In this document: piece after piece, positions 30,840-59,449 of the stretch
Layout: every line of letters starts with the position of its first letter
Numbering within the stretch: position 1 is the first letter of the stretch
Made by a program: the position numbers and the translations under genes
Assembly (NCBI RefSeq): GCF_002980555.1
Contig: NZ_PVBT01000002.1
Coordinates: forward strand, 434,001 to 498,000
Reading direction: 5' to 3'
Source of the DNA: Phyllobacterium myrsinacearum
GTDB taxonomy: Bacteria > Pseudomonadota > Alphaproteobacteria > Rhizobiales > Rhizobiaceae
DNA length: 64,000 bases
The notes under the pieces: generated by a model
The model's database searches: none
The model's input: only the letters and a program-made list of their open reading frames with translations
Told to the model about the DNA's origin: nothing

Positions 30840-30859
30840 GGGTAGCCTCGCTGATGGGA

Positions 30860-33898: not shown

Positions 33899-33962
33899 GT
33901 GGCCCTCTTGGCGTTTCCGTATCAAACCTGGCCGCGGTCAATGACAGGCATATCAGATCAGC

Positions 33963-34012
33963 GAAGACAGAATGTGGCAAGCGCCAGCCTGTCACATTTT
34001 GTCACTGTCTTC
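33963..34012. repeat. Nested inverted repeat upstream of the 5TM-LYT cyclase
   Basis: GAAGACAG (33963-33970) pairs with CTGTCTTC (34005-34012), and directly inside it AATGTGGCA (33971-33979) pairs with TGTCACATT (33990-33998) with one wobble. Together they make a 17-bp stem with a six-base bulge and a ten-base loop. It sits between the cyclase start and the end of the DUF418 gene, so it may be an operator, a leader structure or a weak terminator. Confidence 0.5.
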
Positions 34013-34071
34013 ACTTGCCGTGTATAGGTTGAGAAAAGGTCAATTCGGCGTGCCATGGATGAAACGTTTCA

Positions 34072-35265
34072 TCAGGGGCGCTGTTTTCTCCAGCGCGGAC
34101 GGGCGGCTATCGTGACAAAGCGGAGAAGCCATTCCAGCGGCCCGTACTGGAAGCGGCTCATCCACCAGGTGCTCAATATGAGCTGCACGCCGAATATGCC
34201 GAGCGCGATGAAGATGCCGGTCATTGGCGCAGTCATTCCGATCAGGCCGAAGCCATAAGCGTAGAACAGCGTGGCACAGATTGCCGACTGCAGCAGGTAA
34301 TTGGACAGCGCCATGCGGCCGACGGGTGCCAATAGGCCGGATAGCGATTTACCGTTCACGCTCTGAAACAGAAACATGGCTCCTGCAATATATGCCCCTG
34401 TCAGGAACGGGGCTGTGAGAATGCCGACGGCAAGCCCGGCCATGTCCCAGATGGAGCCGATCAGGTAGACGGAGCACCAGCCATAGAAGATCGCACCGGG
34501 AAGACCAATGGCAATGCCGCCCGCCAACAGGCGCCGGAAGAGCCATTTATAGTCATCAAAACGCAGAAAGACTTGGCGTTTTCCCGCGGCGAGACCGAGG
34601 AGGAACATCGCCAGAGCGCAGGGTGCCTGAATCAATCCGATCACCATCCAGATGGTCGACAGCTCCTCGATATGCTGCCCGATCACCGTGGCGGGCGAGC
34701 TTCGATAGGCCAGCGCGACGGCGTCGGCATTGGCCCTGATCGCATCGGGATTGCCGGATGGCGGCTCCGATGCAGCCAGAAGCGCCATGATTATCCAAAG
34801 CAAGGCAGTGCCGATGACGAGCCACTTGGCCAGTTTGAGTATGCGCGCCTCATCCTGGTTGCGGAGCATCAGGAGCACCACGCCCAGCACCGCATAGGTT
34901 GTCAGGATATCGCCATGGAAAAGCAGCACGGCATGGACAATGCCGATGATCCACAGACCCGCCTGCCGGCGCAGCAGACGCGGCAGGAAGGATTTGCCCG
35001 CCTTTTCCGCCGACTGCATTTGCAATGTAAAGCTGTACCCGAACAAGAAGGAAAACAGCAGGTAGAACTTCGTTTCGAAGAGGCAGGCGATCAGAAAGCG
35101 CGCACCCTGATCGACGGGACTGCTGAAGGCGGGATCCGGGATTTCCGCACCGTAAAATGCCGAGGAAAATGCCATGATATTGACGAGGAGAATACCCAGG
35201 AGAGCGAAGCCCCGCAGGGCGTCAACGTTGACAATGCGGTCCTGGGTCAGGCTTGAAACACTCAA
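34072..35265 (-). CDS. DUF418 family membrane protein
   Basis: The protein (about 397 residues) has some ten hydrophobic segments. The N-terminal NVDALRGFALLGILLVNI is the signature of the DUF418/DUF405 membrane family (YeiB-like), and the C-terminal DUF418 block contains GRMALSNYLLQSAIC and FQYGPLEWLLRF. The start is uncertain. The TTG at 35265 has AGAAGG ten bases upstream; a GTG at 35274 and an ATG at 35340 are in frame, but the first is too close to that site and the second has none. The function of the family is not established; acyl transfer or a transport role has been suggested. Confidence 0.82.
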   Translation of the reverse strand: MSVSSLTQDRIVNVDALRGFALLGILLVNIMAFSSAFYGAEIPDPAFSSPVDQGARFLIACLFETKFYLLFSFLFGYSFTLQMQSAEKAGKSFLPRLLRRQAGLWIIGIVHAVLLFHGDILTTYAVLGVVLLMLRNQDEARILKLAKWLVIGTALLWIIMALLAASEPPSGNPDAIRANADAVALAYRSSPATVIGQHIEELSTIWMVIGLIQAPCALAMFLLGLAAGKRQVFLRFDDYKWLFRRLLAGGIAIGLPGAIFYGWCSVYLIGSIWDMAGLAVGILTAPFLTGAYIAGAMFLFQSVNGKSLSGLLAPVGRMALSNYLLQSAICATLFYAYGFGLIGMTAPMTGIFIALGIFGVQLILSTWWMSRFQYGPLEWLLRFVTIAARPRWRKQRP

Positions 35266-35611
35266 TCTGGTCACACCTTCTGAAAGCGGGGATTTCTGGT
35301 CAGGAACACTGCAGGTCTTTGGCCGGCATCGGCATTCCATCGTTGGTCCGGCCGATTAGACATGCCTGGATTGCGATAGAATTACGCGGGGGGCGATTGC
35401 GGGAAATGGCGTTTCGCCAGAACGTCCTAGGGAAAATGCCGATGGATATGAATTATAATTCACGCAATGAATTATATTGACAGCCGTTGCGGCATAGGCT
35501 TAGTTAATCCTGCCAGCACTCGAGGAGGATTGCTGGTCTTCATAAGGAACAGCGGCCGCCATTCAAGGCGCCACACACCAATGGGAGGGGCTTCGGCCTC
35601 GAGGAGGACAC
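35266..35611 (+). promoter_or_regulatory. 346-bp divergent promoter region of the Lsr-like operon
   Basis: The region contains a short AT-rich block (35450-35480) and a candidate sigma70-type promoter on the plus strand: TTGACA at 35477-35482, 17 bases, then TTAGTT at 35500-35505. It lies about 105 bases upstream of the binding-protein start. No gene is visible. A SorC-type operator is expected here, but no clear palindrome stands out. Confidence 0.45.
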
Positions 35612-36640
35612 TTGCGCACTTTTCTGGGCACGACCGCCATGGCGGTCCTTGCGACCACACTCTTTGCATCTTCGGCAAGCGCGGAAACGGAAAATCCGTT
35701 TCGCTGCAAGCCCGGTGAAAAATACGTCATGAACGTCATGGTTTCGGGCGTTGAATACTGGTTCCCCGTCTATGAAATGTTCAAGCAGGCGGGCAAGCAG
35801 CTGGGCTGCGAGACGGCCTATACGGGCACGCCTGAATACGACGTCAACAAGCAGATCGCGAGTTTCGATCAGGCGCTCGCCCAGAATCCCGCCGGCATTC
35901 TGGTGCATCCGATGAATTCCGATCCTTTCATCGAACCGATCAACCGGGCGGTCGATCAGGGCACTGCCGTCGTCACCTTTGCTGCGGACTCGCCGCTGTC
36001 CAAGCGGATTTCGTTCATTACCTCGGATAACAAGCGTGAAGGTATCTATGCCGCGGACGCCATCGCCACGAAGCTGGGCGGCAAGGGCGAATATGCCGTT
36101 CTGGAAAATCCGGGCCAGGACAATCATGATCGCCGCGTCACGGCCTTCATCGACCGGATGAAGGAAAAGTGGCCGGATATGAAGCTGGTCGGCAGGGCGG
36201 CATCGAACCAGGACCCGACAAAGGCGTATCAGGGCCTGATGAGCATCGCCCAGGCTAATCCCAATCTGGCAGCCGTCTTCATGCCGGAAGCCAACTCGGC
36301 CATTGGCGCCGCACAGGCCAACAAGGAAAGCGGCGGCAAGATTCTTGTCATGTGCGCCGACGTCAATGCCAATATTCTCGACATGATCAAGGCCGGTCAG
36401 GTCTTCGGCTCGATCAATCCCAATCAGGGCATGCAGGGCTATATGGGTTTCATGCTCCTCTGGTTCGCCAAGCATCCGGAACTGATCGATCCGATGAACG
36501 ATGCCAAGCGTGCGGGCACCAACCCGATGAGCATCCCGTTCGTCGACAATGGCCTGTCCATTGTAACAGCCGACAATGCGGATGACTTCTTCTGGGACAA
36601 GTACCTCAAGCGCCGCGGCACCAAGGGGATCGACGAGTAG
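35612..36640 (+). CDS. CUT2-type sugar ABC transporter substrate-binding protein
   Basis: The 342-residue protein starts with TTG, supported by a strong GAGGAGG five bases upstream. A signal peptide (MRTFLGTTAMAVLATTLFASSASA) precedes a Peripla_BP_4 fold: YVMNVMVSGVEYWFPVYEMFKQAGKQLG, KQIASFDQALAQNPAGILVHPMNSDPF and a late GQVFGSINPNQGMQGYMGF. These resemble RbsB/LsrB/rhamnose-type proteins that bind monosaccharides or similar small polyols. It leads an operon with a double ATPase and a permease. The ligand is unknown. Confidence 0.9.
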   Translation: MRTFLGTTAMAVLATTLFASSASAETENPFRCKPGEKYVMNVMVSGVEYWFPVYEMFKQAGKQLGCETAYTGTPEYDVNKQIASFDQALAQNPAGILVHPMNSDPFIEPINRAVDQGTAVVTFAADSPLSKRISFITSDNKREGIYAADAIATKLGGKGEYAVLENPGQDNHDRRVTAFIDRMKEKWPDMKLVGRAASNQDPTKAYQGLMSIAQANPNLAAVFMPEANSAIGAAQANKESGGKILVMCADVNANILDMIKAGQVFGSINPNQGMQGYMGFMLLWFAKHPELIDPMNDAKRAGTNPMSIPFVDNGLSIVTADNADDFFWDKYLKRRGTKGIDE

Positions 36641-36651
36641 TCGTCGCAGAT

Positions 36652-36682
36652 GGCTATCCGGGCCTGCAAGGTCCGGATAGCC
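36652..36682 (+). other. Intercistronic stem-loop after binding-protein gene
   Basis: GGCTATCCGGGCC and GGTCCGGATAGCC form a 13-bp stem with one wobble pair around TGCAA, starting 11 bases after the binding-protein stop. No T-run follows. It is probably an mRNA-stabilising or partially terminating hairpin that keeps the binding protein in excess over the ATPase. Confidence 0.6.
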
Positions 36683-36709
36683 TTGGCGAACGGGAGGGAG
36701 GAAGGCGCC

Positions 36710-38245
36710 ATGGCATCGGAACCGGTCTTGAGTATCCGCGGTATCACCAAGCATTTCGGGGCCGTAAAGGCATTGACGGGGGTCGACTTCACCCTGGCGC
36801 GCGGCGAAGTCCATGCGCTTTGCGGTGAGAACGGTGCCGGAAAATCCACGCTGATGAACATTCTTGCCGGCGTCCTCCAACCCGATGCTGGCGAGATCCT
36901 GCTGGATGGCAAGCCGCAGAAGATTGGCTCGCCTTCGGTTGCGCAGTCACTGGGCATCGGACTGGTGCATCAGGAGATCGCGCTCTGCCCCGATGCCAGC
37001 GTTGCCGAGAACATTTTCATGGCGGCCACCAGCCGCCGCCGGTCATTTCTGATGAATTACCGCAAGCTGGAACGCGATGCGCAGGCGGTCATGGACCGCC
37101 TCGCACCCATTGACGTCCGGCAGAGGGTCGGCGACCTGGCGATTTCCAGCCAGCAGCTGGTGGAGATTGCCAAGGCGCTCACGCTCGACTGCCGGGTGCT
37201 GATTTTCGATGAACCGACCGCCGCGCTGACGGAAGCGGAAACGCGGATACTTTTCGGCATTATCCGGGAACTGAAGGCGCACGGCATTTCCATTATCTAT
37301 ATCAGCCACCGGATGGCGGAGATTTTCAGCCTGTGTGATCGCGTCACCGTGCTGCGCGATGGCCGCTATGTCTCCACCGAGGATATTGCCGATGTCACCC
37401 CCGATGACGTGGTGCGGCGCATGGTCGGGCGTGAAATCACGCAGCTCTATCCTTCGAAGCAGACGGATGCCGAGCGCTCGGACGCGGTGATATTGTCGGT
37501 CCGCAATTTGGGCGACAAGGAGCGGTTTTCCAATGTGTCGTTTGATCTGGCGCGAGGGGAAATTCTTGGGATTGGCGGGCTTATCGGGTCCGGACGCACC
37601 GAAATCGCCGAGGGCATTTGCGGCCTGCGTGCGGCCGTCGACGGTGAGGTTTCCCTGCACGGCAAGCCGCAGGCCATTCGAACCTATGCGGATGCGGTCA
37701 AAGCAGGAATTGTCTATCTCTCCGAAGACCGCAAGGGCTCGGGCGTTTTCCTGGACCTGTCGATTGCCCAGAACATTTCTGTCCTCAATCTGAAGGCAGT
37801 CACCGGTCATCTCGGCTTGATCGATGCCAAGGCCGAAGGCCAGCTCGCCAGCGATTTTGCGCGCAGGCTTGGCGTGCGCATGAACCACGTCAACATGCCG
37901 GTGTCGTCGCTCAGCGGCGGCAACCAGCAGAAGGTGGCCATCGCCAAGCAGCTTGCGGTCCAGCCGCAAGTTATTCTGATGGACGAGCCGACGCGCGGCA
38001 TCGATGTCGGCGCGAAATCGGAAATCCACCAGCTTCTGCGCGAACTTGCCCGGTCGGGGATCGGCATCATTGTTATTTCCTCCGAGCTTCCGGAGCTTCT
38101 GGGCCTGTGCGACCGGGTGCTTGTCATCCGCGAAGGTACGGTAGCCGGTGAACTCGACGGCGGCGAAATGAGCGAAGAAGCCATTATCCGGCTCGCATCT
38201 GGACTGAAACATACAACGGCGCGTGCACCAGAACATGCAGCCTGA
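36710..38245 (+). CDS. CUT2-type sugar ABC transporter ATPase (two nucleotide-binding domains)
   Basis: The 511-residue protein has two ABC domains in tandem, as in RbsA/MglA/LsrA. The first has [22 protein letters not shown] and [10 protein letters not shown]; the second has a degenerate Walker A ([13 protein letters not shown]), [16 protein letters not shown] and [13 protein letters not shown], the usual asymmetry of this family. The ATG at 36710 follows GGGAGGGAGG. It energises import with the single permease encoded downstream, presumably a homodimer. Confidence 0.95.
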
Positions 38246-38267
38246 AGAGCGATTGGGAGATAGACGA

Positions 38268-39257
38268 ATGGCGGTCGATACAGCGATGGCGAAAACGGCG
38301 CGGGTTTCATCCTGGAAGAAATTGGGTTCGATGCGCGAAGCCGGCCTGATCGCCATCATTCTGGCGCTCTGCATCGCGATGAGTTTCGTCTCGCCGCATT
38401 TTCTGACGCTTGGCAACTTTCGCGCCATGCTGATGAGCTTTTCGGTGGAAGGTATTGTTGTCGTGGGGATGACGATCCTCCTGATCGTCGGCGGCATCGA
38501 TCTCGCCGTCGGTTCGGTTGTCTGCTTCGCCATGGTGCTTTCCGGCACGCTGTTCCTGGCCGGGCTCGACCCGTGGATGGCCTCGCTCATCGGCATTCTG
38601 GCCAGCGGGCTGATCGGCTGTGTCATGGGGTTCTTCGTCACGGTGGTGGGGCTCAACCACTTTATCACCTCGCTGGCCGGCATGGTGATTGTGCGCGGCC
38701 TGTGCCTGATCATCACCAAGGGAACGCCGCTTTCGCTTTTCACCCTGCCGCCCGCATTCAAGGCGGTCGGGCAGGGCTCGTTTCACGGGGTGCCCTACGT
38801 CATCCTCATCTTCTTCGCGGTGGTCGTGCTGTTCGACTTCCTGCTGCGGCGCGCCACCGCTTTGCGCAAGGTCTTCTATACCGGCAGCAATGAAAAGGCG
38901 GCGCTTTACTCCGGCATCCGCACGAAGCAGGTGAAGTTCTGGGTAACCGTTCTCTGCTCGACGCTGGCCGGGTTCGCCGGGGTGATCTACATGTCGCGCT
39001 TTGGCGCGGCCACGCCGACCTTCGGCGTCGGCATGGAGCTTAACATCATTGCAGCTGCGGTTATCGGCGGTGCATCGCTCAATGGCGGCTCCGGCACGAT
39101 CCTCGGCGCCATCCTTGGCATAGCGCTGCTGTCGCTGGTCACCAGCTCGCTGGTGCTGCTCGATGTCTCCGTCTACTGGCAGGACATGATAAAGGGGTGC
39201 ATTCTTCTGACCGCCGTCTCCATCGACCATTTCCTGCACAAGCGGAAGGCCTCCTGA
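38268..39257 (+). CDS. CUT2-type sugar ABC transporter permease
   Basis: A 329-residue inner-membrane protein with eight to ten hydrophobic segments. Family landmarks are LIVGGIDLAVGSVVCFAMVLSG, FYTGSNEKAALYSGIRTKQVKFWV and [28 protein letters not shown], as in RbsC/LsrC. The start at 38268 has GGGAGA seven bases upstream and lies 22 bases after the ATPase stop. Only one permease gene is present, whereas Lsr systems have two. Confidence 0.95.
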   Translation: MAVDTAMAKTARVSSWKKLGSMREAGLIAIILALCIAMSFVSPHFLTLGNFRAMLMSFSVEGIVVVGMTILLIVGGIDLAVGSVVCFAMVLSGTLFLAGLDPWMASLIGILASGLIGCVMGFFVTVVGLNHFITSLAGMVIVRGLCLIITKGTPLSLFTLPPAFKAVGQGSFHGVPYVILIFFAVVVLFDFLLRRATALRKVFYTGSNEKAALYSGIRTKQVKFWVTVLCSTLAGFAGVIYMSRFGAATPTFGVGMELNIIAAAVIGGASLNGGSGTILGAILGIALLSLVTSSLVLLDVSVYWQDMIKGCILLTAVSIDHFLHKRKAS

Positions 39258-39259
39258 CC

Positions 39260-40264
39260 ATGGCGATTATCAAACTCAATCCGAAACACGCGGCTCCGCG
39301 CGAGGAAATCGTCATCGCGCGGCAGATGCACCAGGCGCTGGTCCTGCACTTTCTCGAGGGACTGACCCAGGCGCAGATTGCCGATCAGCTCGGGATTTCG
39401 CAGCCGACGGTCAACCGCCTCATCAAGCGCGGCCGCCAGCTTGGCCTCGTCGAGATCAAGATCAAATCGCCGGTCGAGCCGCTGGTCGATATGGAGGAAC
39501 AGCTGCTGGCGCTGGGCGGCATCAGCCGCGCCATTGTCGTGCCGACGGTGTCCGACAATCCGCAGACGGCGCTTCAGGCGGTCGGCGAGGCCGCGGCGCG
39601 ATTGCTGATCGAAGAGATTACCGATGGCGATACGATCTGCATTACCGGCGGCAAGGGTGTCAGCGCCGTGGTTGCCGGATTGCAGGCGCCGCGCCGTTTC
39701 GATGTCGAGGTGATCCCGGCTACCGGTTGCGTCCAGGGCAAGCACTATACGGATGTCAATCATGTCTCGACCCTGATGGCCGACAGGCTCGGCGGGCGCG
39801 CCTACCAGATTCATGCGCCGCTGTTTGCCGACAGCCCTTCCGAACGCGCCATGCTGATCAACATGCGCTCGGTCGCCGATGTCTTCAAACGGGCACGCGA
39901 GGCGAAAATCGCCGTGGTGGGTATCGGCTCGATCCTCACCGATGACTCGAGTTATTACGACCTGCATCCGTCATCGAGCACGGACCTCGACGCGATCGAG
40001 CGTTCCGGTGCGCGCTGCGAACTGCTGGCCCATCTGCTCGATGATCGCGGACAGGTCTGCGATTACAGCCTGAACGGCTCGCTGGTCTCGCTGACGCTGC
40101 AGGAGTTTGCCTCCATTCCGACCAAGATCGGTGTCGCCAGCGGACCGAACAAAGCGCGGCCGATCCTGAGCATCATGCGCGGCAATCATCTGGACACGCT
40201 GGTGACGGACGAAGCGACGGGGCAGCGCATTCTGGATATTGCCGCTGAAGGAGGACAGGCATGA
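39260..40264 (+). CDS. SorC/DeoR-family sugar-responsive transcriptional regulator
   Basis: The 334-residue protein has an N-terminal helix-turn-helix, FLEGLTQAQIADQLGISQPTVNRLIKRGRQLGLVEI (about residues 30-70), and a C-terminal SorC effector domain that resembles sugar isomerases (ITDGDTICITGGKGVSAVV, PATGCVQGKHYTDVN, AVVGIGSILTDDSS, GPNKARPILS). LsrR, SorC and EryD are known members, and they respond to a phosphorylated pathway intermediate. It starts two bases after the permease stop and overlaps the reductase gene by four bases, so it is expressed with the operon it probably controls. Confidence 0.92.
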   Translation: MAIIKLNPKHAAPREEIVIARQMHQALVLHFLEGLTQAQIADQLGISQPTVNRLIKRGRQLGLVEIKIKSPVEPLVDMEEQLLALGGISRAIVVPTVSDNPQTALQAVGEAAARLLIEEITDGDTICITGGKGVSAVVAGLQAPRRFDVEVIPATGCVQGKHYTDVNHVSTLMADRLGGRAYQIHAPLFADSPSERAMLINMRSVADVFKRAREAKIAVVGIGSILTDDSSYYDLHPSSSTDLDAIERSGARCELLAHLLDDRGQVCDYSLNGSLVSLTLQEFASIPTKIGVASGPNKARPILSIMRGNHLDTLVTDEATGQRILDIAAEGGQA

Positions 40265-41253
40265 GCAACGAGCAATTAACGCGGGCAATCGGCAAGTCCG
40301 GCGTGCAGGCGTCGGCCGTGGGGCTGGGAACCTGGGCCATCGGCGGCTGGATGTGGGGTGGCACTGACGAGCAGGAATCGATTGCCGCCATTCAGGCATC
40401 GCTGGACGCCGGTGTCAGTCTCATCGACACGGCGCCCGCCTACGGGCTTGGGCGGTCGGAGGAAATCGTCGGCAAGGCCCTCAAGGGACGCCGGGACAAG
40501 GCGGTCATCTCCACGAAATGTGGCCTCGTCTGGCACACAACCAAAGGCACGCATTTTTTCGATCAGGATGGCAAGCCGGTGCATCGCTATCTCGGACGCG
40601 ATGCCATTGTTCACGAGGTCGAGGAAAGCCTGCGGCGTCTGGGCACCGACTACATCGATCTCTACATCACCCACTGGCAGGACCCGACCACGCCGATTGA
40701 GGAAACGGTGCGGGCCATGGAGGATTTGCGCGGGGCTGGCAAGATCCGCGCCATCGGTGCGAGCAATGTCAATCTCACTGAACTCAATGCCTATATCGCC
40801 ACCGGCGCGCTGGATGCGATCCAGGAACGGTTCAGCATGATCGACCGGGAGCTTGAGGCCGAATTGCTGCCGGTAACGCGCAAAAATAACGTTTCATTGC
40901 TGAGTTATTCGTCGCTGGCGCTGGGTCTGCTGTCCGGGACCGTTGATCCCGGGCGTGTCTTCTCCGGCGATGACCAGCGCAAGGACAATCCACGCTTTTC
41001 CCAAGGCAACCGTCTGAAGGCAAGGCAGTTTGCCGATGCCATTCGGCCCGTTGCGGACAAACACACAGCCAGCATCGCCCAGATCGTCATTGCGTGGACG
41101 CTGGCGCAGCCGGGCATCACCTTTGCGCTGTGCGGGGCGCGCAACCCCGATCAGGCGCTCGACAATGCGAGGGCGGGAACGATCCGGCTCGGCGCAGACG
41201 ACCTCTCGGCCATTGACGCGGCCATCGCAGTGCAACTGGCAGACATGAGGTAA
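40261..41253 (+). CDS. Aldo/keto reductase
   Basis: A 330-residue NAD(P)-dependent oxidoreductase with a TIM-barrel fold. The catalytic tetrad is readable: Asp56 and Tyr61 in LIDTAPAYGLGRSEE, Lys86 in VISTKCG and His138 in YITHWQD. The cofactor segment CGARNPDQALDNA is near the end. The YGxGxSE pattern and length place it with IolS/YghZ/GalDH-type enzymes acting on sugars or inositols. Within this operon it could oxidise an imported aldose or reduce a sugar to its polyol; the direction cannot be read. Confidence 0.92.
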   Translation: MSNEQLTRAIGKSGVQASAVGLGTWAIGGWMWGGTDEQESIAAIQASLDAGVSLIDTAPAYGLGRSEEIVGKALKGRRDKAVISTKCGLVWHTTKGTHFFDQDGKPVHRYLGRDAIVHEVEESLRRLGTDYIDLYITHWQDPTTPIEETVRAMEDLRGAGKIRAIGASNVNLTELNAYIATGALDAIQERFSMIDRELEAELLPVTRKNNVSLLSYSSLALGLLSGTVDPGRVFSGDDQRKDNPRFSQGNRLKARQFADAIRPVADKHTASIAQIVIAWTLAQPGITFALCGARNPDQALDNARAGTIRLGADDLSAIDAAIAVQLADMR

Positions 41254-41264
41254 CAGGCTGCATC

Positions 41265-42998
41265 ATGAACCGTGAAGAGATATTTGACGGACTTCGCCGG
41301 AGTCCGAAGGTGGACGTGTGCGTCGTCGGTGGCGGCATCAACGGCATCAGCGTGTTCCGCGAGCTGGCGCTGCAGGGCGTCAATGTGCTGCTGGTCGAGA
41401 AGCATGACTACTGTTCCGGCGCCAGCGCTGCCCTGTCGCGCATGGTGCATGGCGGCCTGCGCTATCTTGAAAACGGTGAATTCAGCCTGGTGCGGGAATC
41501 GCTGGCCGAACGCGACCGCCTGTTGAAAAATGCGCCGCACCTTGTTGCGCCGCTGCCCACCACCGTCCCGGTCTTCGATATTTTCTCGGGTCTTGCCAAC
41601 GGCATCGTGCGGTTTCTGGGGTTGAGCCGCAGGCCAAGCCGGCGCGGCGCGGTTGCGGTCAAGGCGGGCTTGAGCATTTATGACTTCCTGACCCGCAAGC
41701 GGGCTCTGATGCCGCGTCACCGCTTTCGCGGGCGCCATGCGACACTGGCCAAATGGCCGGCGCTCAATCCTGCCGTCAAAAGTTCCGCGACCTATCACGA
41801 CGCCTGGGTCAAACATCCCGAACGCATCGGGATGGAGGTGCTGAGGGATGGCCTGGCAGCGGGCGATCATGCGCGCGCCCTGAATTACGCCGAACTGCAG
41901 CGGTCCGCAGACGGCTTCACCGTCCATGATCACCTCACCGGCGCGGCAATGCCGGTCGAGCCCGCCTTCATCATCAATGCGACAGGCGGGTGGATCGATA
42001 TCGCCAATGCCGAACTGTTTTCGCAGGAACGGCGGCCGGCGCCGCTGATGGGCGGCACGAAAGGATCGCATCTCATCATCGACAATGCGAACCTTGCCGG
42101 AGCCCTTGCCGGCCACATGATCTATTACGAGAACGAGGACGGGCGCATCTGCATCCTCTTTCCCTATCTCGGCAAGGTTCTGGTCGGTTCGACCGATATC
42201 CGCGTTGACGATCCCGGAAGCGTTCAATGCGAGCCGGATGAACGGGACTACATCCTGCAGTCGCTGGCCTTTGTCCTGCCCGGCATCCGCATCCGGCCGG
42301 AGGACATCGTCTTCCAGTTCTCCGGCGTGCGCCCCCTTCCGGCCAGCAAGGATGATTTTACCGGCCGCATCCCGCGCGATCACTACTGCACGATCATCGA
42401 ACCTTCCGATGGCGAGCCGCCGGTGCTGTGCATGATCGGCGGTAAATGGACGACGTTCCGCTCCTTCGGTGAGCTTGCCGCCGACATGACGCTGGAACGC
42501 CTGCAGCGAACGCGGCAGGTCTCGACTGCGAGCCGCCCGATCGGCGGCGGACGGGCATTCCCCGCCGATGCCAGGGAGTGGATTTCCCGCATCCGCGCTG
42601 AAACAGGCGTTTCGCCGCATCGTCTCTCCGCGCTCTTTGACCGCTATGGCACCGATGCCGGGGGGATGGCGCAATTTATCGCGGCAGGCCCGGACAAAAC
42701 CATGCCGCATCCAGATTATTCGGTTCGTGAGCTGTTGTTTCTCGTCCGCAATGAAGCGGTCGAACATCTTGATGACCTGTTGCTGAGACGAACGACCCTC
42801 GCCATCAGCGGCCAGCTATCCCTCGATCTCACGCAAGCAGCACTCGATGTGCTCGCGCGGGAAAAAGGCTGGTCGCCCGCACGCCAGAAAGCAGAACTTG
42901 ACCGCTTCCTCACCCTTCTCGCCGGGCGCCATGGCGTCGGCTTCGACACACTCACCGCACGCAATGAACAAGGAGTACGATATGCGCAACAATCTTAA
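41265..42998 (+). CDS. GlpD-like FAD-dependent polyol-phosphate dehydrogenase
   Basis: The 577-residue flavoprotein begins with the FAD-binding VCVVGGGINGISVFRELALQGVNVLLVEK and shows the GlpD blocks SAALSRMVHGGLRYLENGEF, VLVGSTDI and FSGVRPLP, with a long C-terminal domain. It is longer than, and clearly divergent from, the glpD product at 54057. EryB of Brucella, a GlpD homologue that oxidises erythritol phosphate, shows that such paralogues can act on other polyol phosphates. Next to an FGGY kinase and an aldolase, this enzyme may oxidise a polyol phosphate to a ketose phosphate. It overlaps the aldolase gene by 17 bases. Confidence 0.85.
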   Translation: MNREEIFDGLRRSPKVDVCVVGGGINGISVFRELALQGVNVLLVEKHDYCSGASAALSRMVHGGLRYLENGEFSLVRESLAERDRLLKNAPHLVAPLPTTVPVFDIFSGLANGIVRFLGLSRRPSRRGAVAVKAGLSIYDFLTRKRALMPRHRFRGRHATLAKWPALNPAVKSSATYHDAWVKHPERIGMEVLRDGLAAGDHARALNYAELQRSADGFTVHDHLTGAAMPVEPAFIINATGGWIDIANAELFSQERRPAPLMGGTKGSHLIIDNANLAGALAGHMIYYENEDGRICILFPYLGKVLVGSTDIRVDDPGSVQCEPDERDYILQSLAFVLPGIRIRPEDIVFQFSGVRPLPASKDDFTGRIPRDHYCTIIEPSDGEPPVLCMIGGKWTTFRSFGELAADMTLERLQRTRQVSTASRPIGGGRAFPADAREWISRIRAETGVSPHRLSALFDRYGTDAGGMAQFIAAGPDKTMPHPDYSVRELLFLVRNEAVEHLDDLLLRRTTLAISGQLSLDLTQAALDVLAREKGWSPARQKAELDRFLTLLAGRHGVGFDTLTARNEQGVRYAQQS

Positions 42999-43824
42999 GG
43001 TCCGGATGAACCGCCTGTTCGGCGCGGGACGCTGCCTCGACGTGGCGATCGATCACGGCGTGTGCAATGAGCCGTCCTTCCTGAACGGTCTTGAGGACAT
43101 GGGAGGTGTTGTCCGTGCGCTGGTGGCGGCAGGCCCGGATGCCATCCAGATGAATTACGGCCAAGCCGACCTCTTGCAGGATGTCGCCGGCAAGGACAAG
43201 CCGGCGCTGGTCATGCGTATCGACATGGGCAATCCGTACAATGCCATCCGCCATCGCGATATGTGGGCGGTGCTGCAGAACGAGGCCGAGCCGCTGATCG
43301 GCGCAATCCAGATGGATGCGGCCTGTGTCGTCGTCAATCTTTTCATGTTGCCCGACGAGCCGGACCTGTTCCGCCAGTGCGTGCAGAATATCGCGCGGGT
43401 CCGCGCCGATTGCGACAAATACGGCATGCCCCTGATGATCGAGCCGCTCGTCATGCAGCCCGTTACGGAACGCGGCGGCTATATGGTGGATGGCGATGCC
43501 GGCAAGATCGTCACGCTCACCCGTCTTGCCCGTGAAATGGGCGCTGATATCATCAAGGCGGACCCGACGACGGCGGCGGAGGATTTTCATCGCGTGGTGG
43601 AGGCGGCGCGGTGTCCTGTGCTTGTGCGGGGCGGCGGCAAGGAGGACCTGCGCATCGTCTTCGAGAAATCGGCGGCCCTGATGCGGCAGGGGGCCGTGGG
43701 CATGGTCTATGGCCGGAACATCTATCAGCACGCCAATCCCAGCGCAGTGGTGCGCGGGCTGATGGCCATTATCCATGACAATGCCAGCGGCGAGGATGCC
43801 TACGCGCTCTACCAGCAGGGCTGA
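42982..43824 (+). CDS. DhnA/DeoC-type class I aldolase (LsrF-like)
   Basis: From the ATG at 42982 (AAGGAG upstream; another ATG at 42964 is less well placed) the protein has 280 residues. It has the (beta/alpha)8 landmarks of the DhnA/LsrF family: CLDVAIDHGVCNEPSF, a probable Schiff-base lysine in MGADIIKADPT, VLVRGGGKEDL and VGMVYGRNIYQHANP. Relatives include archaeal-type fructose-bisphosphate aldolase and LsrF, the thiolase of AI-2 breakdown. In context it probably cleaves a ketose phosphate, giving dihydroxyacetone phosphate, but the partner aldehyde is unknown. Confidence 0.88.
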   Translation: MRNNLKVRMNRLFGAGRCLDVAIDHGVCNEPSFLNGLEDMGGVVRALVAAGPDAIQMNYGQADLLQDVAGKDKPALVMRIDMGNPYNAIRHRDMWAVLQNEAEPLIGAIQMDAACVVVNLFMLPDEPDLFRQCVQNIARVRADCDKYGMPLMIEPLVMQPVTERGGYMVDGDAGKIVTLTRLAREMGADIIKADPTTAAEDFHRVVEAARCPVLVRGGGKEDLRIVFEKSAALMRQGAVGMVYGRNIYQHANPSAVVRGLMAIIHDNASGEDAYALYQQG

Positions 43825-43857
43825 GAATGAAAACAAGAACCTGAGGAGGGGTTCCGT

Positions 43858-45387
43858 ATGGGAGAGTATCTTTTGGGTCTTGATGCTGGCAACACCATCA
43901 TCAAGGCCATCATCTTCGACCGGCAAGGCAATGAGATTGCGGCGGCGGCCGAGGAGGGGCATAGCAGCATGCCGCATCCGGGGCACGTGGAGCGCGGGCT
44001 CGACGAGCTTTGGAGCAATGCGCGCCGGGTCATTCAACGCTGCATCGGCGACGCCGGAATAGGCCCGGAGCAGATTGCCGCCATCGGCTGCGCCGGGCAT
44101 GGCAACGGCCTTTATACCCTTGACCGCGCGGGCAATCCGCTGCTGGCGATCCAGTCCCTGGACACGCGCGCAGCCGACCTGGTGGAAGAATGGCAGGCGG
44201 AAGGCGTCGGCGACCGCACCTATCCGATCGGCCTGCAGCGGCCCTGGCCATCGCAGACCCCGACGCTGCTGGCCTGGATCAAACGCCACCAGCCGGAAAC
44301 ATTCGCGCGGATCGGCACGGTGTTCCTGTGCAAGGATTTCATCGTCAACCGCCTGACGGGAAAGCGCGTGAGCGAGGTATCCGACATGGCGGGTTGCGGG
44401 CTGCTCGACGTCGCCCGGCGGCGGTATGACCGCGCATTGATGGCCGCTTTCGGGCTTGACGATTGCATGGACCTGCTGCCGCCGCTCATTGAAAGCGCCG
44501 ACATCGCCGGAACGGTCACGCAGGCCGCCGCCGACCAGACCGGACTTGCCGTTGGCACACCAGTCATTGGCGGGCTTTTCGATGTGATTGCCTCGGCAAT
44601 CGGCTCCGGCGTCACCCGCACGTGCGCTGCCTCGATCATCGCCGGTACCTGGAGCATCAATCAGGTCGTCGTTGACGCGCCCCGCCTCAAAAAACCGTTC
44701 TTCATGTCGTCCACTTTCGACCGCGAGCGTTACATGGCGATTGAATCGAGCGCGACGTCGGCCGCCAATCTTGAATGGCTGGTGCGCGAGTTCTTCCACG
44801 GTGAACAGCCGGATGGAGGCTCGCCATTCGATCGCTGCTGTGAACTGGCGGCGGCGGTGGAACCGGCAGCAGACGATCCGATCTACCACCCGTTCCTCTA
44901 TGGCGCCCAGCAGGACGGCAATGCCCGGGCAGGTTTTTATGGCGTCGCGGGCTGGCATACGAAAGGCCACCTGATCCGGGCTCTGCTCGAAGGCGTGGCT
45001 TTTGGCCATCGCCAGCACATCGAAACATTGCGGGACGCAGGCGCCAATTTCGACGAGGCGGTGCTGTCCGGCGGCGGTTCGCGCAGCCTGATCTGGCCGC
45101 AGATTTTTGCCGATGTCCTCGGGGTTCCGGTGACAGTAGCGCGCTCGAGCCAGACAGGGGCGCTTGGCGCGGCGATTGCCGCGGGTACAGCGGCCGGCAT
45201 TTTCCCTGATTTCGATGCCGGTGCCGCAGCCATGGTCGTGATGGAACGGTCCTACCGGCCGGACGCCGCAAAAGCTGGCCATTATGCCAGGCGCTATCAG
45301 CTTTACCGCGACATTGCCGATGCCATGGCACCGGTCTGGAAGCGCATGGCGGCACGCGACACCGTGATGGCGGAGGCTGCAGCGTGA
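43858..45387 (+). CDS. FGGY-family carbohydrate kinase
   Basis: The 509-residue kinase has the two actin-like domains of the family. The first starts YLLGLDAGNTIIKAIIFDRQGNE; the second includes GGLFDVIASAIGSG, EGVAFGHRQHIETL and the ATP-site SGGGSRSLIWPQIFADVLGVPV. The Asn in GLDAGNT, where many sugar kinases have Gly-Thr or Thr-Thr, recalls erythritol and L-xylulose kinases. It has a strong GAGGAGGGG site and overlaps the GMC oxidoreductase by four bases. The substrate is probably the polyol or ketose handled by this operon. Confidence 0.9.
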   Translation: MGEYLLGLDAGNTIIKAIIFDRQGNEIAAAAEEGHSSMPHPGHVERGLDELWSNARRVIQRCIGDAGIGPEQIAAIGCAGHGNGLYTLDRAGNPLLAIQSLDTRAADLVEEWQAEGVGDRTYPIGLQRPWPSQTPTLLAWIKRHQPETFARIGTVFLCKDFIVNRLTGKRVSEVSDMAGCGLLDVARRRYDRALMAAFGLDDCMDLLPPLIESADIAGTVTQAAADQTGLAVGTPVIGGLFDVIASAIGSGVTRTCAASIIAGTWSINQVVVDAPRLKKPFFMSSTFDRERYMAIESSATSAANLEWLVREFFHGEQPDGGSPFDRCCELAAAVEPAADDPIYHPFLYGAQQDGNARAGFYGVAGWHTKGHLIRALLEGVAFGHRQHIETLRDAGANFDEAVLSGGGSRSLIWPQIFADVLGVPVTVARSSQTGALGAAIAAGTAAGIFPDFDAGAAAMVVMERSYRPDAAKAGHYARRYQLYRDIADAMAPVWKRMAARDTVMAEAAA

Positions 45388-47012
45388 GCCGCTCCGTCAA
45401 TGCATCGCCGAAAGATGAAGGCGTCTACGATTTCATCATTGTGGGCGCAGGATCGGCCGGCTGCGTGCTGGCCAACCGCCTGTCAGCCGACCCGAAAAAC
45501 CGCGTGCTCCTGCTCGAGGCGGGCGGCAGCGACCGCTATCACTGGATTCACGTGCCCATCGGCTATCTCTATTGCATGGGCAATCCGCGCACGGACTGGA
45601 TGATGAAAACCGCTGCGGAGGCAGGGCTGAACGGCCGCTCGCTTCCCTATCCGCGCGGCAAGGTGCTGGGCGGCTGTTCGTCGATCAACGGCATGATCTA
45701 CATGCGGGGGCAGGCCGCCGACTATGACGGCTGGCGCCAGGCCGGGAATACCGGCTGGGGCTGGGACGATGTCCTGCCCTATTTCCTCAAATCCGAAGAC
45801 AATTATCGCGGCCATTCCGCCCTGCATGGGGCAGGGGGCGAATGGCGCGTCGAACGGCAACGCCTGTCCTGGCCCATCCTCGATGCGTTTCGCGATGCGG
45901 CCGAAGAGCTTGGCATTGGCAAGACCGATGATTTCAATGCCGGTGACAATGAGGGCTCCGGCTATTTCGAGGTCAATCAGCGCGGCGGCGTTCGCTGGAA
46001 CACCACCAAAGCGTTTCTGCGTCCTGTCTTGAAGCGGTCCAATCTCCGGGTGCTGACCGGGGCGGAGGTGCAAGGGCTGGAGTTTGACGGCAAGCGCGCA
46101 ACAGCCATCCGCTTTGAGCGGAACGGCCAGCCCTGCAAGGCTGCGGCGGCTGGCGAAATCATCCTGTCGGCGGGCGCGATCAATTCGCCGAAAATCCTTG
46201 AGCTGTCGGGTATTGGAGACCCTCATCTCCTGAAGCAGGCGGGCATTGAAACGTTTCATGAACTGCGCGGTGTCGGCAATAACCTGCAGGATCATCTGCA
46301 GATCCGCACGGTTTTCCGCATCGAAGGGGCGAAAACCCTGAACCAGCTCTACCACAACCTCTTCGCGCGTGCCGCGATGGGACTGGAATACGCCTTCCGC
46401 CGGTCAGGACCACTGTCGATGGCGCCAAGTCAGCTCGGTATCTTTGCCAAAAGCGATCCTGCATTGCTGACCCCGGATCTTGAATATCATGTCCAGCCGC
46501 TCAGCACGGACAGGCTCGGCGAACCGCTGCACCGCTATCCCGCCGTGACCGTGTCCGTCTGCAATCTGCGCCCGGAAAGCCGTGGTAGCGTCCATGTCAC
46601 CGGAGCGGATGCCAGCCGGCAACCGGAGATCCGGCCAAACTACCTGTCAACACCGGGTGACCGGCTGCTTGCGGCCAGGTCGATCCGCCATGCCCGCCGC
46701 CTCATGACGACGCAAACCTTGAAAAAGTATCGTCCGTCGGAAATGCTTCCCGGACCGCAGTATCAGAGCGACGATGAATTGATCCAGCGCGCCGGGGATA
46801 TCGCGACGACGATTTTTCATCCCGTCGGAACCTGCAAGATGGGCAGCGGCGACCAGTCCGTTGTCGATCATGCCCTGCGGGTGCACGGTGTTGCGGGTCT
46901 GCGTGTCGTCGATGCGTCCATCATGCCGAGCATCGTCTCCGGCAATACCAATTCGCCTGTCATCATGATTGCGGAAAAAGCCGCCGATCTCATTCTTCGC
47001 GGGGTGGAATAG
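45384..47012 (+). CDS. GMC-family FAD oxidoreductase
   Basis: The 542-residue flavoprotein has the dinucleotide-binding site DFIIVGAGSAGCVLANRLSADP, the GMC signature YPRGKVLGGCSSINGMIYMRG, a second signature SAGAINSPKILELSGIG, and the C-terminal catalytic His region TIFHPVGTCKMG followed by VVDASIMPSIVSGNTNSPVIMIAEKAAD. Relatives include choline, alcohol and sugar/polyol dehydrogenases. No signal peptide is seen, so it should act in the cytoplasm, passing electrons to an acceptor or O2. It is the last gene of the Lsr-like operon and may carry out the first or a side oxidation of the substrate. Confidence 0.92.
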   Translation: MSRSVNASPKDEGVYDFIIVGAGSAGCVLANRLSADPKNRVLLLEAGGSDRYHWIHVPIGYLYCMGNPRTDWMMKTAAEAGLNGRSLPYPRGKVLGGCSSINGMIYMRGQAADYDGWRQAGNTGWGWDDVLPYFLKSEDNYRGHSALHGAGGEWRVERQRLSWPILDAFRDAAEELGIGKTDDFNAGDNEGSGYFEVNQRGGVRWNTTKAFLRPVLKRSNLRVLTGAEVQGLEFDGKRATAIRFERNGQPCKAAAAGEIILSAGAINSPKILELSGIGDPHLLKQAGIETFHELRGVGNNLQDHLQIRTVFRIEGAKTLNQLYHNLFARAAMGLEYAFRRSGPLSMAPSQLGIFAKSDPALLTPDLEYHVQPLSTDRLGEPLHRYPAVTVSVCNLRPESRGSVHVTGADASRQPEIRPNYLSTPGDRLLAARSIRHARRLMTTQTLKKYRPSEMLPGPQYQSDDELIQRAGDIATTIFHPVGTCKMGSGDQSVVDHALRVHGVAGLRVVDASIMPSIVSGNTNSPVIMIAEKAADLILRGVE

Positions 47013-47244: not shown

Positions 47245-48129
47245 ATGAATCCGGATCTGGAAGTCGTTGCCGTCGGCATCGCCGAGTCGTTCAAAGCCTG
47301 GGAACACGGCTATCCCTATCGCACCGTCCGCTGGCATTTTCATCCGGAATACGAGATCCATCATGTCGTTGCCACGACCGGCCAGTATTTCGTCGGCGAT
47401 TTCATTGGTGATTTCGAGCCCGGCAATCTCGTGCTGACTGGGCCGAACCTGCCGCATAACTGGGTGAGTGATGTGCCGCCGGGCACGAGTTTGCCGTTGC
47501 GTTGCCGGGTTCTGCAGTTCTCCGAGTCGTTCTTTTCGAGCGCAAACGAGGCATTTCCCGAGCTGTCCGCGTGCAAGGAGATGCTGGAGATGAGCCGCCG
47601 GGGCGCGTTGTTCTCCCCACGGACAGCGGAATTGGTCGGCCCCTTGCTGGGAGAGCTTGTCGATGCCAGAGGCATTGACCGCATTCAGCTGTTCATGGGT
47701 ATTCTCAAGCATATGAGCAGCGCGGCCGGGACCCGGGAGCTGGCAAGCGCGCGCTATCATCCCGATCCCTCCGGATTCATGTCGAGCGGGATGAACAAGG
47801 TTCTCGCCTATATCAATGCCAACCTGACCGAACGTTTCGTTGAGGGGGATCTCGCCGATCTGATCGGCCAGAATCCGAGTTCGTTTTCCCGCAGTTTCCG
47901 GCGCCACACCGGGATGGCGCTTGTACAATATGTCAACCGGTTGCGGATCAATTTTGCCTGCCACCTGCTGATGAGCAAACCCGACATGTCGATCACCGAT
48001 ATCTGTTTTACGACAGGGTTCAATAACATCTCGAATTTCAATCGTCGCTTTCTGGAACAGAAGGGTATGGCACCCACAAGATTCCGAACATTATTGTCCA
48101 AAAATATAAGAGCGTCAGAAGCCGCCTGA
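47245..48129 (+). CDS. AraC-family transcriptional regulator
   Basis: The 294-residue protein has an N-terminal cupin-like sensor (RWHFHPEYEIHHVVATTGQYFVGDFIGDFEPGNLVLTGPNLPHNW) and a C-terminal double helix-turn-helix (YINANLTERFVEGDLADLIGQNPSSFSRSFRRHTGMALVQYVNRLRIN and CFTTGFNNISNFNRRF). GGGAGGAG precedes the ATG. It stands just upstream of, and in line with, the pentitol transport genes and is the obvious candidate activator of that operon, with the sugar or polyol as effector. Confidence 0.93.
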   Translation: MNPDLEVVAVGIAESFKAWEHGYPYRTVRWHFHPEYEIHHVVATTGQYFVGDFIGDFEPGNLVLTGPNLPHNWVSDVPPGTSLPLRCRVLQFSESFFSSANEAFPELSACKEMLEMSRRGALFSPRTAELVGPLLGELVDARGIDRIQLFMGILKHMSSAAGTRELASARYHPDPSGFMSSGMNKVLAYINANLTERFVEGDLADLIGQNPSSFSRSFRRHTGMALVQYVNRLRINFACHLLMSKPDMSITDICFTTGFNNISNFNRRFLEQKGMAPTRFRTLLSKNIRASEAA

Positions 48130-48169
48130 ACGGGAAGGACCAGGACACAATATTTGCAGCAAGGCACAA

Positions 48170-48192
48170 CGAACCATGTCCGTGGTTCGAAC
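48170..48192. promoter_or_regulatory. Inverted repeat between araC-type gene and binding-protein gene
   Basis: CGAACCA (48170-48176) and TGGTTCG (48183-48189) form a perfect 7-bp inverted repeat around TGTCCG, and GGTTCGAAC nearby is itself nearly symmetric. It lies about 90 bases upstream of the transporter start. It could be an operator or a leader hairpin. AraC proteins usually bind direct repeats, so the assignment is weak. Confidence 0.35.
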
Positions 48193-48282
48193 GACCTTCC
48201 TTGTCCTTCAAGCAGCATATCCCGGCGTTCGACGGGCGCGGGATTCACCGAAACCACCATCATTTGGAAGGGAGATATTCCA

Positions 48283-49350
48283 GTGACATCATTTGCATCG
48301 ACCAAGACCGGCGCCGCGGCGCTCGCACTTTGCCTTCTTAGCGGACCATCCGCATTCGCACAGTCCGCCACGGTAACGGATGCGACCATTGCATTCCTGA
48401 TGCCGGATCAGGCATCCACACGCTACGAGCAGCACGACTATCCGGGATTTGCAGCCGAGATGAAAAAGCTCTGCCCCGGCTGCAAGGTGATTTACCAGAA
48501 TGCCGATGCCGATGTGTCCCGCCAGCAGCAGCAGTTCAACTCGGTCATCGCGCAGGGCGCCAAGGCTATCGTGCTGGACCCGGTCGACTCGACGGCAGCG
48601 GCATCGCTGGTGAAGCTGGCGCAAAGCCAGGGTGTCAAGGTCATCGCCTATGACCGGCCGATCCCATCCACTCCGGCTGATTTTTATGTCTCCTTCAACA
48701 ATGAAGGGATCGGCAAGGCGATCGCGGATTCACTGGTGCAACACCTGAAGGCGTCGAATGTACCGGCAGGCAAGGGCGGCGTCCTGCAGATCAATGGCTC
48801 GCCGACGGATGCCGCAGCCGGTCTCATCAAGAAGGGCATTCATGCGGGGCTCGACCACAGCGGCTATCCGATCCTTGCCGAATATGACACGCCGGAATGG
48901 GCGCCGCCGAAGGCACAGCAATGGGCCAGCGGCCAGATCACCCGTTTCGGCAGCAAGATCCTGGGTGTTGTCGCTGCCAATGACGGCACGGGCGGCGGCG
49001 CCATTGCCGCCTTCAAGGCGGCGGGTGTCGACCCGCTTCCGCCCATTACCGGCAATGACGCGACGATCGCGGCCTTGCAGCTGATCATCGCGGGCGACCA
49101 GTACAACACCATCTCGAAGCCGAGCGAGATCGTCGCGGCAGCGGCTGCCAAGGTGGCCGTCCAGCTGCTGTCAGGCGAGACCCCGAAGGCCGAAATGACC
49201 CTGTACGATACGCCGTCCCAGCTGTTCACGCCGGCGGTCGTCACGGCGGAGAATCTGAAGGCTGAGATCATCGACAAGAAGATCATCAAGGCGGAAGAGC
49301 TTTGCACCGGCCGCTATGCGCAGGGCTGCAGGAAGCTCGGCATCAATTGA
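48283..49350 (+). CDS. Pentose/pentitol ABC transporter substrate-binding protein
   Basis: The 355-residue protein starts with GTG (AAGGGAG upstream) and a signal peptide ending GPSAFAQS. The fold is Peripla_BP_4: ATIAFLMPDQASTRYEQHDYPGFAAEMKKL, NADADVSRQQQQFNSVIAQGAKAIVLDPVDS, VIAYDRPI and TPEWAPPKAQQWASGQI, closest by eye to XylF-type xylose-binding proteins. With a pentitol-type dehydrogenase and a ribulokinase-type enzyme in the same operon, ribitol (or another pentitol) is the most likely ligand; this is inference. Confidence 0.88.
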   Translation: MTSFASTKTGAAALALCLLSGPSAFAQSATVTDATIAFLMPDQASTRYEQHDYPGFAAEMKKLCPGCKVIYQNADADVSRQQQQFNSVIAQGAKAIVLDPVDSTAAASLVKLAQSQGVKVIAYDRPIPSTPADFYVSFNNEGIGKAIADSLVQHLKASNVPAGKGGVLQINGSPTDAAAGLIKKGIHAGLDHSGYPILAEYDTPEWAPPKAQQWASGQITRFGSKILGVVAANDGTGGGAIAAFKAAGVDPLPPITGNDATIAALQLIIAGDQYNTISKPSEIVAAAAAKVAVQLLSGETPKAEMTLYDTPSQLFTPAVVTAENLKAEIIDKKIIKAEELCTGRYAQGCRKLGIN

Positions 49351-49370
49351 CGAATACGCGGATGACGCCG

Positions 49371-49390
49371 TCCGGCCGCACGCGGCCGGA
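49371..49390 (+). other. Intercistronic stem-loop after binding-protein gene
   Basis: TCCGGCCG and CGGCCGGA form a perfect 8-bp GC-rich stem with a CACG loop, 21 bases after the binding-protein stop and 46 before the ATPase start. There is no T-run. It is the third binding-protein gene in this window followed by such a hairpin. Confidence 0.6.
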
Positions 49391-49436
49391 GGCTCATCGT
49401 TTCACCCCGCCCCGGCATACCGAAAGGCAGATGGCA

Positions 49437-51505: not shown

Positions 51506-51530
51506 CACCAACCCCAAAATGAGGAATGAT

Positions 51531-52259: not shown

Positions 52260-52261
52260 GC

Positions 52262-57607: not shown

Positions 57608-57620
57608 TCATCATCAATAG

Positions 57621-57645: not shown

Positions 57646-57695
57646 TTCGCATTCATTCCGGACAACGAAACTGATCTTTTTGGTAGGAGGAGACT

Positions 57696-58421: not shown

Positions 58422-58436
58422 CCCAAGGAGGCTGGC

Positions 58437-59438: not shown

Positions 59439-59449
59439 AACGATGGATT

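Follow-up and report, generated by a model that had tools for sequence, protein, structure and literature searches.

Two described systems come closest to the operon studied here. In the ery loci of rhizobia and Brucella (with gene names and reactions as we assume them to be), a polyol is taken up by a CUT2 transporter, phosphorylated by an FGGY polyol kinase and only then oxidised by a GlpD-type flavin dehydrogenase, under a SorC regulator, the intermediates being processed by isomerases and not by an aldolase. The Lsr system for autoinducer-2 (AI-2) combines a transporter, a SorC regulator, an FGGY kinase and a DhnA aldolase, and we know of no GlpD-like step in its breakdown pathway. Here we analyse an operon of nine plus-strand genes (35612-47012) in a stretch of 64,000 nucleotides (hereafter the window) from Phyllobacterium myrsinacearum (contig NZ_PVBT01000002.1, positions 434,001 to 498,000), encoding a CUT2-type solute-binding protein (SBP), a fused double ATPase, a permease, a SorC/DeoR-type regulator, an aldo/keto reductase (AKR), a GlpD-like flavoprotein, a DhnA-type class I aldolase, an FGGY kinase and a GMC flavin oxidoreductase. 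Based on the gene families, gene order, conservation, conserved catalytic positions and promoter palindrome computed in this work, we favour, with moderate confidence, the view that the operon serves the uptake and breakdown of an alditol (most likely C4-C7) by way of dihydroxyacetone phosphate (DHAP).

In the pathway that we infer (including every reaction, the order of the steps, the substrate class, the role of the AKR and the binding of SorC), the CUT2 transporter would bring the alditol in and the FGGY kinase would phosphorylate a terminal hydroxyl, giving an alditol-1-phosphate. The GlpD-like flavoprotein would then oxidise the carbon beside the phosphate, as GlpD does with glycerol-3-phosphate, passing the electrons to the quinone pool and yielding a ketose-1-phosphate, which the class I aldolase would split, by a Schiff base, into DHAP and a short aldehyde. 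The length of the alditol would set this aldehyde (C4 giving formaldehyde, C5 glycolaldehyde and C6 glyceraldehyde), which the AKR would probably reduce, the GMC enzyme being a presumed optional accessory. The promoter palindrome would be the site of control by SorC, whose signal is probably a phosphorylated intermediate. An earlier note on this DNA had outlined the same sequence of import, phosphorylation, oxidation and aldol cleavage, and this route is the best-supported reading, strengthened by the comparative evidence below.

One genome per species was scanned with the GlpD-like protein, and the best 80 of 246 relatives were fetched, so the GlpD-like gene is present in all 80 loci by construction (as the search query); a gene was counted as present when it gave a plus-strand tblastn match of at least 55% identity, length coverage being checked separately. 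The loci with at least 6.5 kb on either side of the GlpD-like gene start (74 of the 80) were counted, and six were set aside, two of which (L050 and L073) still have nine genes, the rest (L055, L061, L063 and L072) being cut. The order SBP-ATPase-permease-SorC-AKR-GlpD-like-aldolase-FGGY was identical, on one strand, in 74/74 loci, with a match covering at least 80% of each of these eight genes in every locus. The GMC gene is present in 55 of the 74 (54 over at least 80% of its length, L016 being partial). No recurrent same-strand gene was seen to replace it after the FGGY gene in the 19 GMC-less loci, seven of which (L015, L032, L040, L043, L051, L058 and L081) share a set of opposite-strand genes there. 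Many flanking genes vary between genera and genomes, so the block behaves as a cassette; given this shared order against differing flanks, the arrangement exceeds chance.

The identity of the SBP is 86-99% in 77 loci, 182 plasmid records match it, and the closest named locus is from P. myrsinacearum itself (GlpD-like 86%, SBP 99% identity). More distant copies of the operon occur in Alloyangia pacifica and Rhizobium sp. SL42 (SBP identity 57% and 51%); in the former, the GMC gene is split into two annotated coding sequences (L145, 14368-15850). In Rhizobium johnstonii 3841 the operon lies on pRL12 (RL_RS36690-RL_RS36730). In Sinorhizobium meliloti 1021 all nine genes are on pSymB, where we infer that they correspond to SMb20496 (GMC) to SMb20504 (SBP), the tags being obtained by counting between SMb20495 and SMb20505 and not from annotation. 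The former flank is described as a TPR protein (PMC5498481), and TPR matches were found at that position; the latter is described as tfxG (PMC4053727), and an APH-family protein was found there.

Regarding the dehydrogenase, the GlpD-like protein stays below the cut-offs of two curated GlpD models (259.4 against 360 bits and 226.5 against 352 bits). Its R66, R356 and K394 align with Arg54, Arg317 and Lys354 of E. coli GlpD, which we take to be substrate-binding residues; the positions of Arg317 and Lys354 are conserved in 29/29 rows and that of Arg54 in 24/29. These conserved GlpD-type residues make a phosphorylated, glycerol-3-phosphate-like substrate likely, and oxidation next to the phosphate would yield a ketose-1-phosphate. 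In the tree (29 midpoint-rooted rows of mechanically extended open reading frames (ORFs), some far too long, for example at 889, 853 and 762 residues, holding EryA and EryB twice, without RL_RS33905 and with L143 as the sole locus of family f43, described below), the protein falls into a group whose other members are 38-86% identical to it, separate from GlpD and the EryB of pRL12 (support 0.88). The FGGY kinase reaches no NCBIfam cut-off, the best score being that of XylB (268 bits against 380), with no EryA model among the matches.

For both enzymes, the closest sequences beyond the module (32-39% identity for the kinase and 38-44% for the dehydrogenase in L121-L128) form a second FGGY/GlpD-like pair, found on pRL12 beside the ery locus (RL_RS33910/RL_RS33905) and in L121, L122, L123, L126 and L128. 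This pair shares a stretch with EryA relatives in L149/L150 (pRL12, 203.8-214.8 kb), L121, L122, L126 and L128, and is accompanied by DUF2291 and CUT2 transporter genes in pRL12, L122, L126 and L128. In L126 it is followed by TIM and RpiB genes, and on pRL12 a class II aldolase gene adjoins it on the opposite strand; possibly, the pair serves another tetritol. An assignment of the 38-46% relatives of the GlpD-like protein as EryB was rejected, the pRL12 EryB being a different GlpD-type protein and these relatives belonging to the second pair.

The aldolase has a PF01791 domain, the Schiff-base lysine and the class I fold, and is thus of the DhnA type. The lysine (K192) is invariant in 20/20 sequences, as are D24, E154, G217, G218, G244 and R245, and the AlphaFold2 model (pLDDT 85.5) finds its best fold matches in MJ0400 (a DHAP-bound ADH synthase), LsrF and an archaeal fructose-bisphosphate aldolase (FBA). 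We propose a ketose-1-phosphate as its substrate.

Searched with the aldolase, the phylum gave matches in 10/398 genomes, the class in 9/385 and the family of genome G379 in 8/250, with the window's own genome, or G379, counted among them. In all 15 of the further neighbourhoods fetched (L170-L184), the aldolase, the FGGY kinase and the GlpD-like gene occur together, other genes being lost or replaced. The eight-gene order recurs in four of these (L170, L172-L174); L175-L177 are devoid of the AKR and retain the transporter, kinase, GlpD-like gene and aldolase; and L171 (G567:C127) has the AKR, GlpD-like, aldolase and FGGY genes, with a short-chain dehydrogenase/reductase (SDR) gene in place of the transporter and SorC. 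In L178-L184 and L143 (family f43), the run SBP-ATPase-permease-AKR-aldolase is divergent from a different FGGY kinase, a GntR gene and a GlpD-like gene whose best match is the second pair. Keeping the transporter and aldolase while exchanging kinase, dehydrogenase and regulator is expected if all of them serve one substrate. Additionally, an FGGY kinase, a GlpD-like gene and a DhnA-type aldolase form one run with overlapping ends in L123 (~6421-10594), where the aldolase is 27% identical to that of the window; this reassembly of the trio with a different aldolase supports the logic of the pathway.

A broader proposal, for and against which we hold the case to be evenly poised, is that alditol phosphorylation, GlpD-type oxidation beside the phosphate and cleavage of the ketose-1-phosphate to DHAP form a hitherto undescribed trunk route that extends the logic of glycerol and erythritol catabolism to larger or rarer polyols. 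Alphaproteobacteria, together with one or more further classes of the phylum, would carry it as a cassette in which kinase, dehydrogenase and regulator can be exchanged, and it would have arisen at least twice with different aldolases (that of the window and that of L123). Both the AKR and the GMC enzyme are missing from some loci and are not counted as core; the three extra oxidoreductases of the earlier note are all present in the window, and the description was overstated only for the core.

Several observations weigh against the alditol pathway. The clade of the GlpD-like protein and the second pair has a support of only 0.88, and the window's branch with L097 one of 0.54, the kinase tree being poorly resolved at its base (0.66-0.89). 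The top-scoring kinase model, XylB, is a xylulokinase, acting on a ketose. Kinase/GlpD-like pairs without an aldolase match occur in L121, L122, L125, L126 and L128 (the search covering L128 and shorter stretches of the others), and no transporter or SorC match lies within 19 kb in L171. The loss of the AKR in 3/15 and of the GMC gene in 19/74 loci makes the fate of the aldehyde uncertain. The predicted structure of the SBP is poor (pLDDT 70) and uninformative on the ligand; with the closest solved structures (arabinose-binding protein, CbpA and a 'sugar ABC transporter') at 146-165 bits, no ligand was deduced from this protein. Finally, nearly all polyols supporting good growth of S. meliloti have other loci, lactitol remaining.

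The first alternative, which we regard as rather unlikely, is that an aldose or another carbonyl sugar is imported and reduced by the AKR to the alditol, followed by kinase, GlpD-like enzyme and aldolase. The AKR gene would suit this role, being the first enzyme gene after SorC and retained in 74/74 loci, and the closest solved relative of the SBP is the arabinose-binding protein; additionally, S. meliloti grows on L-lyxose, D-psicose and D-allose (growth table of PMC4207669), sugars for which no locus is familiar to us. Nevertheless, L175-L177 do without the AKR while keeping the rest of the pathway, and reducing a sugar ahead of a flavin dehydrogenase costs NAD(P)H, an isomerase and a ketose kinase being simpler.

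A second alternative, which appears unlikely, is a ketose route with glycerol recycling, in which the FGGY kinase makes a hexulose-1-phosphate, the aldolase releases DHAP and glyceraldehyde, the AKR reduces the latter to glycerol and the GlpD-like enzyme is a glycerol-3-phosphate dehydrogenase. The leading xylulokinase score of the kinase agrees with it, as do the AKR matches to the methylglyoxal reductase YdjG (the nearest NCBIfam model, at 290 bits against an unreached cut-off of 550) and, weakly, to L-glyceraldehyde-3-phosphate reductase models. What argues against it is the GlpD-like protein itself, which falls below both GlpD cut-offs and outside GlpD in the tree, while a separate GlpD passing both lies in the same window; moreover, the operon is without a glycerol kinase, and the GlpD-like gene is retained where the AKR is lost.

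An improbable third alternative is that the substrate is threitol or erythritol and that erythrulose-1-phosphate is cleaved with release of formaldehyde. This release would be costly, the operon has no formaldehyde-oxidising gene, and the ery-type loci, as said above, handle such intermediates without an aldolase. In its favour, EryA relatives and TIM/RpiB genes are found close to relatives of the kinase/GlpD-like pair, and the formation of erythrulose-1-phosphate from DHAP and formaldehyde has been reported for DHAP-dependent aldolases (PMC10733421).

Returning to the alditol pathway, the substrate is probably to be sought among threitol, iditol, altritol, allitol, a heptitol or a deoxyalditol. 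S. meliloti presumably has its glycerol and inositol loci elsewhere. Its growth table (PMC4207669), in which xylitol does not figure, reports good growth on adonitol, D- and L-arabitol, mannitol, sorbitol, dulcitol, glycerol, erythritol, lactitol, inositol and maltitol. The smo locus, the mpt transporter and a tagatose/sorbitol/mannitol regulator at SMb21372 belong to the other loci that account for such polyols. As the good-growth polyols mostly have other loci, the substrate is probably outside this panel or a minor member of it. The pSymB galactitol/tagatose operon was rejected as an explanation, the tagatose/sorbitol/mannitol regulator being placed at SMb21372 (PMC4560400), far from SMb20496-20504.

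Upstream of the operon, the promoter palindrome is perfect in 14 of the 20 aligned upstream regions (20 of 77) and imperfect in L011, L013, L020, L032, L033 and L040. It has two forms related by a paired A/T exchange, TGAATTATAATTCA here and TGAAATATATTTCA in other loci, and a promoter-proximal 10-mer, TGAATTATAT, is exact in 70/77 upstream regions. The single exact genomic copy of TGAAWTATAWTTCA sits at this promoter, suggesting local control by SorC, which, to judge from the position of the palindrome, presumably binds it. A search for other SorC targets gave no second exact palindrome in the genome and only three sites with one mismatch (G000:C2:318817, C2:621849 and C3:290342; L152-L154), possibly further targets. 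The leader (35506-35611) has two copies of TCGAGGAGGA in the aligned loci, this 10-mer occurring in 77/77 upstream regions, and a conserved GGGCTTCGGCCTC stretch ahead of the SBP start. A structured RNA leader was rejected, as 35500-35640 folds no better than shuffled sequences (z -1.19; 28/200 shuffles as good).

Table 1. Features of the operon and its upstream region (positions in the window).
Feature	Position	Strand	Basis
Predicted SorC operator	35449..35482	+	Palindrome TGAATTATAATTCA at 35449-35462; imperfect second copy TGAATTATATTGACA at 35468-35482, containing the -35 hexamer
Predicted promoter	35477..35505	+	-35 TTGACA at 35477-35482, 17-bp spacer, -10-like TTAGTT at 35500-35505; read from sequence
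CUT2-type SBP, TTG start	35612..36640	+	PF13407 Peripla_BP_4, 180 bits
CUT2 fused double ATPase	36650..38245 (likelier start ~36710)	+	PF00005 ABC_tran, two stretches, 170 bits
CUT2 permease	38223..39257 (likelier start ~38268)	+	PF02653 BPD_transp_2, 120 bits
SorC/DeoR-type regulator	39197..40264 (likelier start ~39260)	+	PF04198 Sugar-bind, 186 bits
AKR	40261..41253	+	Aldo_ket_red, 229 bits
GlpD-like FAD enzyme, proposed alditol-1-phosphate dehydrogenase	41265..42998	+	PF01266 + PF16901 (DAO + DAO_C), 148/67 bits
DhnA-type class I aldolase, proposed ketose-1-phosphate aldolase	42964..43824	+	PF01791 DeoC/LacD, 199 bits
FGGY carbohydrate kinase, proposed alditol kinase	43858..45387	+	PF00370 + PF02782 (FGGY_N/C), 200/103 bits
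GMC flavin oxidoreductase, accessory	45384..47012	+	PF00732 + PF05199 (GMC N/C), 163/128 bits

All nine genes have Pfam matches above cut-off (Table 1), which confirms the nine-gene plus-strand operon and the families named for it previously, and none reaches an NCBIfam cut-off (among the best 25 of 192 families in the case of the ATPase). The absence of an eryC-like isomerase likewise stands, the nine genes giving no AP_endonuc_2, TIM or RpiB match. The starts given earlier for the ATPase, permease, SorC and aldolase genes were mechanical, being those of the longest ORFs, and internal starts are preferred from the translations (for the aldolase 42964 or 42982, the longest ORF beginning at 42847). 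At several junctions the ORFs overlap or almost abut, which is compatible with one transcription unit. The Peripla_BP_4 SBP, the fused double ATPase and the BPD_transp_2 permease identify the transporter as a CUT2 sugar ABC transporter, and GS69 and IolS are among the closest solved structures of the AKR.

Downstream, an adjacent operon (47245-53896) encodes an AraC regulator, a CUT2 SBP (XylF/ChvE-like), a single ATPase, a permease, an SDR and an FGGY pentulose kinase (TIGR01315, 694 bits against a cut-off of 409), and is probably a pentitol pathway. Relatives of its SBP, ATPase, permease, SDR and kinase (54-79%) also adjoin the operon studied here in A. pacifica (L145), where LacI replaces AraC, and a mannitol-dehydrogenase-family gene lies in the neighbourhood of L173. 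Such polyol-like neighbours were seen in three of the neighbourhoods inspected (window, Alloyangia and L173), which is no systematic count, and pRL12, for one, has none. A glycerol/dihydroxyacetone cluster follows (54057-62572), with GlpD (797 bits, cut-off 360), GlpK, a MIP channel, DhaK, DhaL and a DhaM-type phosphotransferase system protein; a further GlpD at G000:C3:70990 is almost identical to the GlpD of this cluster (tree distance ~0.01). On the minus strand upstream (29232-35340) are genes for an SBP_bac_5 binding protein, a Beta-lactamase-family (PF00144) protein, a GGDEF + 5TM protein and a DUF418 membrane protein.

A literature search by gene families and locus tags, with many papers outside its scope, found no functional study of the operon, and within it the statement that no pathway with this exact set has been described is uncontradicted. 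The sole match to an operon gene was a proteome table (PMC12542648), which lists SMb20504 as a periplasmic sugar-binding protein, undetected in low phosphate and, in TY medium, lower in phbC phaR than in the phbC strain (log2 -3.81, with imputation permitted). The kind of operon is familiar (sugar-alcohol catabolism), and the gene combination appears undescribed within the literature searched. With eight to nine genes conserved in many plant-associated bacteria, it looks like a complete machine from alditol import to glycolysis. It is nearly invariant in S. meliloti 1021 and R. johnstonii 3841 as well as in many of their relatives, which makes it probable that the substrate is common in plants, roots or soil. 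Sugar-alcohol catabolism has been reported to influence the competition for symbiosis (PMC10433430). Once the substrate is identified, nine genes could be given a function in well over a hundred records, and new specificities would be named for kinase, dehydrogenase and aldolase in families whose present annotation goes no further than 'glycerol-3-phosphate dehydrogenase' and 'fructose-bisphosphate aldolase'.

Compared with known systems, the aldolase has its fold and Schiff-base lysine in common with the class I DhnA-type enzymes MJ0400, LsrF and archaeal FBA. Its identity to MJ0400 and LsrF in the structural alignment is, however, just 25-28%, and at the position that we take to be Trp144 of the archaeal FBA it has Glu, without the tyrosine that we likewise assign to that enzyme. 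Loci with aldolase paralogues (L141 at 9398-16597, L142 and L144) contain a Gfo/Idh enzyme and a PfkB kinase, with a D-lyxose isomerase in L141 and L144 and a CUT2-type transporter in L141, and apparently represent an orphan sugar pathway. The L141 operon resembles that of the window in its aldolase (54% identical over the alignment), its transporter and a kinase giving a sugar phosphate for cleavage, and differs from it in having an isomerase, PfkB and Gfo/Idh instead of FGGY, GlpD-like and AKR, and LacI instead of SorC.

Uptake and degradation of AI-2 is highly improbable and membership of the Lsr system was rejected, since the superfamilies in common (those of the transporter, SorC regulator, FGGY kinase and DhnA aldolase), and LsrF among the closest folds of the aldolase, stand against seven Lsr models below cut-off (bits/cut-off: LsrB 56.5/384, LsrA 450.8/586, LsrC 133.8/388, LsrD 90.2/500, LsrK 224.6/528, LsrR 125.9/486, LsrF 105.3/297), one permease instead of LsrC plus LsrD, no lsrG among the nine genes, and a GlpD-like enzyme without a role in AI-2 breakdown as we know it. 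Thus, the earlier comparison with Lsr holds at the level of superfamilies, the GlpD-like, AKR and GMC enzymes being extra here. The resemblance to ery drawn at the same time holds for the families and fails for orthology to EryB. The pRL12 ery locus contains FGGY, GlpD, a TIM-barrel protein, SorC, DeoR, TPI and RpiB, a content from which we take its EryA and EryB to be identified; the kinase and dehydrogenase of the window are each 26% identical to these and fall in separate clades. Membership of ery was rejected as well, the GlpD-like protein being outside GlpD and EryB and the operon having an aldolase instead of the EryC, EryH and EryI isomerases, none of which is among the nine genes. The Lsr framing is therefore to be dropped, and that of ery is replaced by kinship with the second kinase/dehydrogenase pair.

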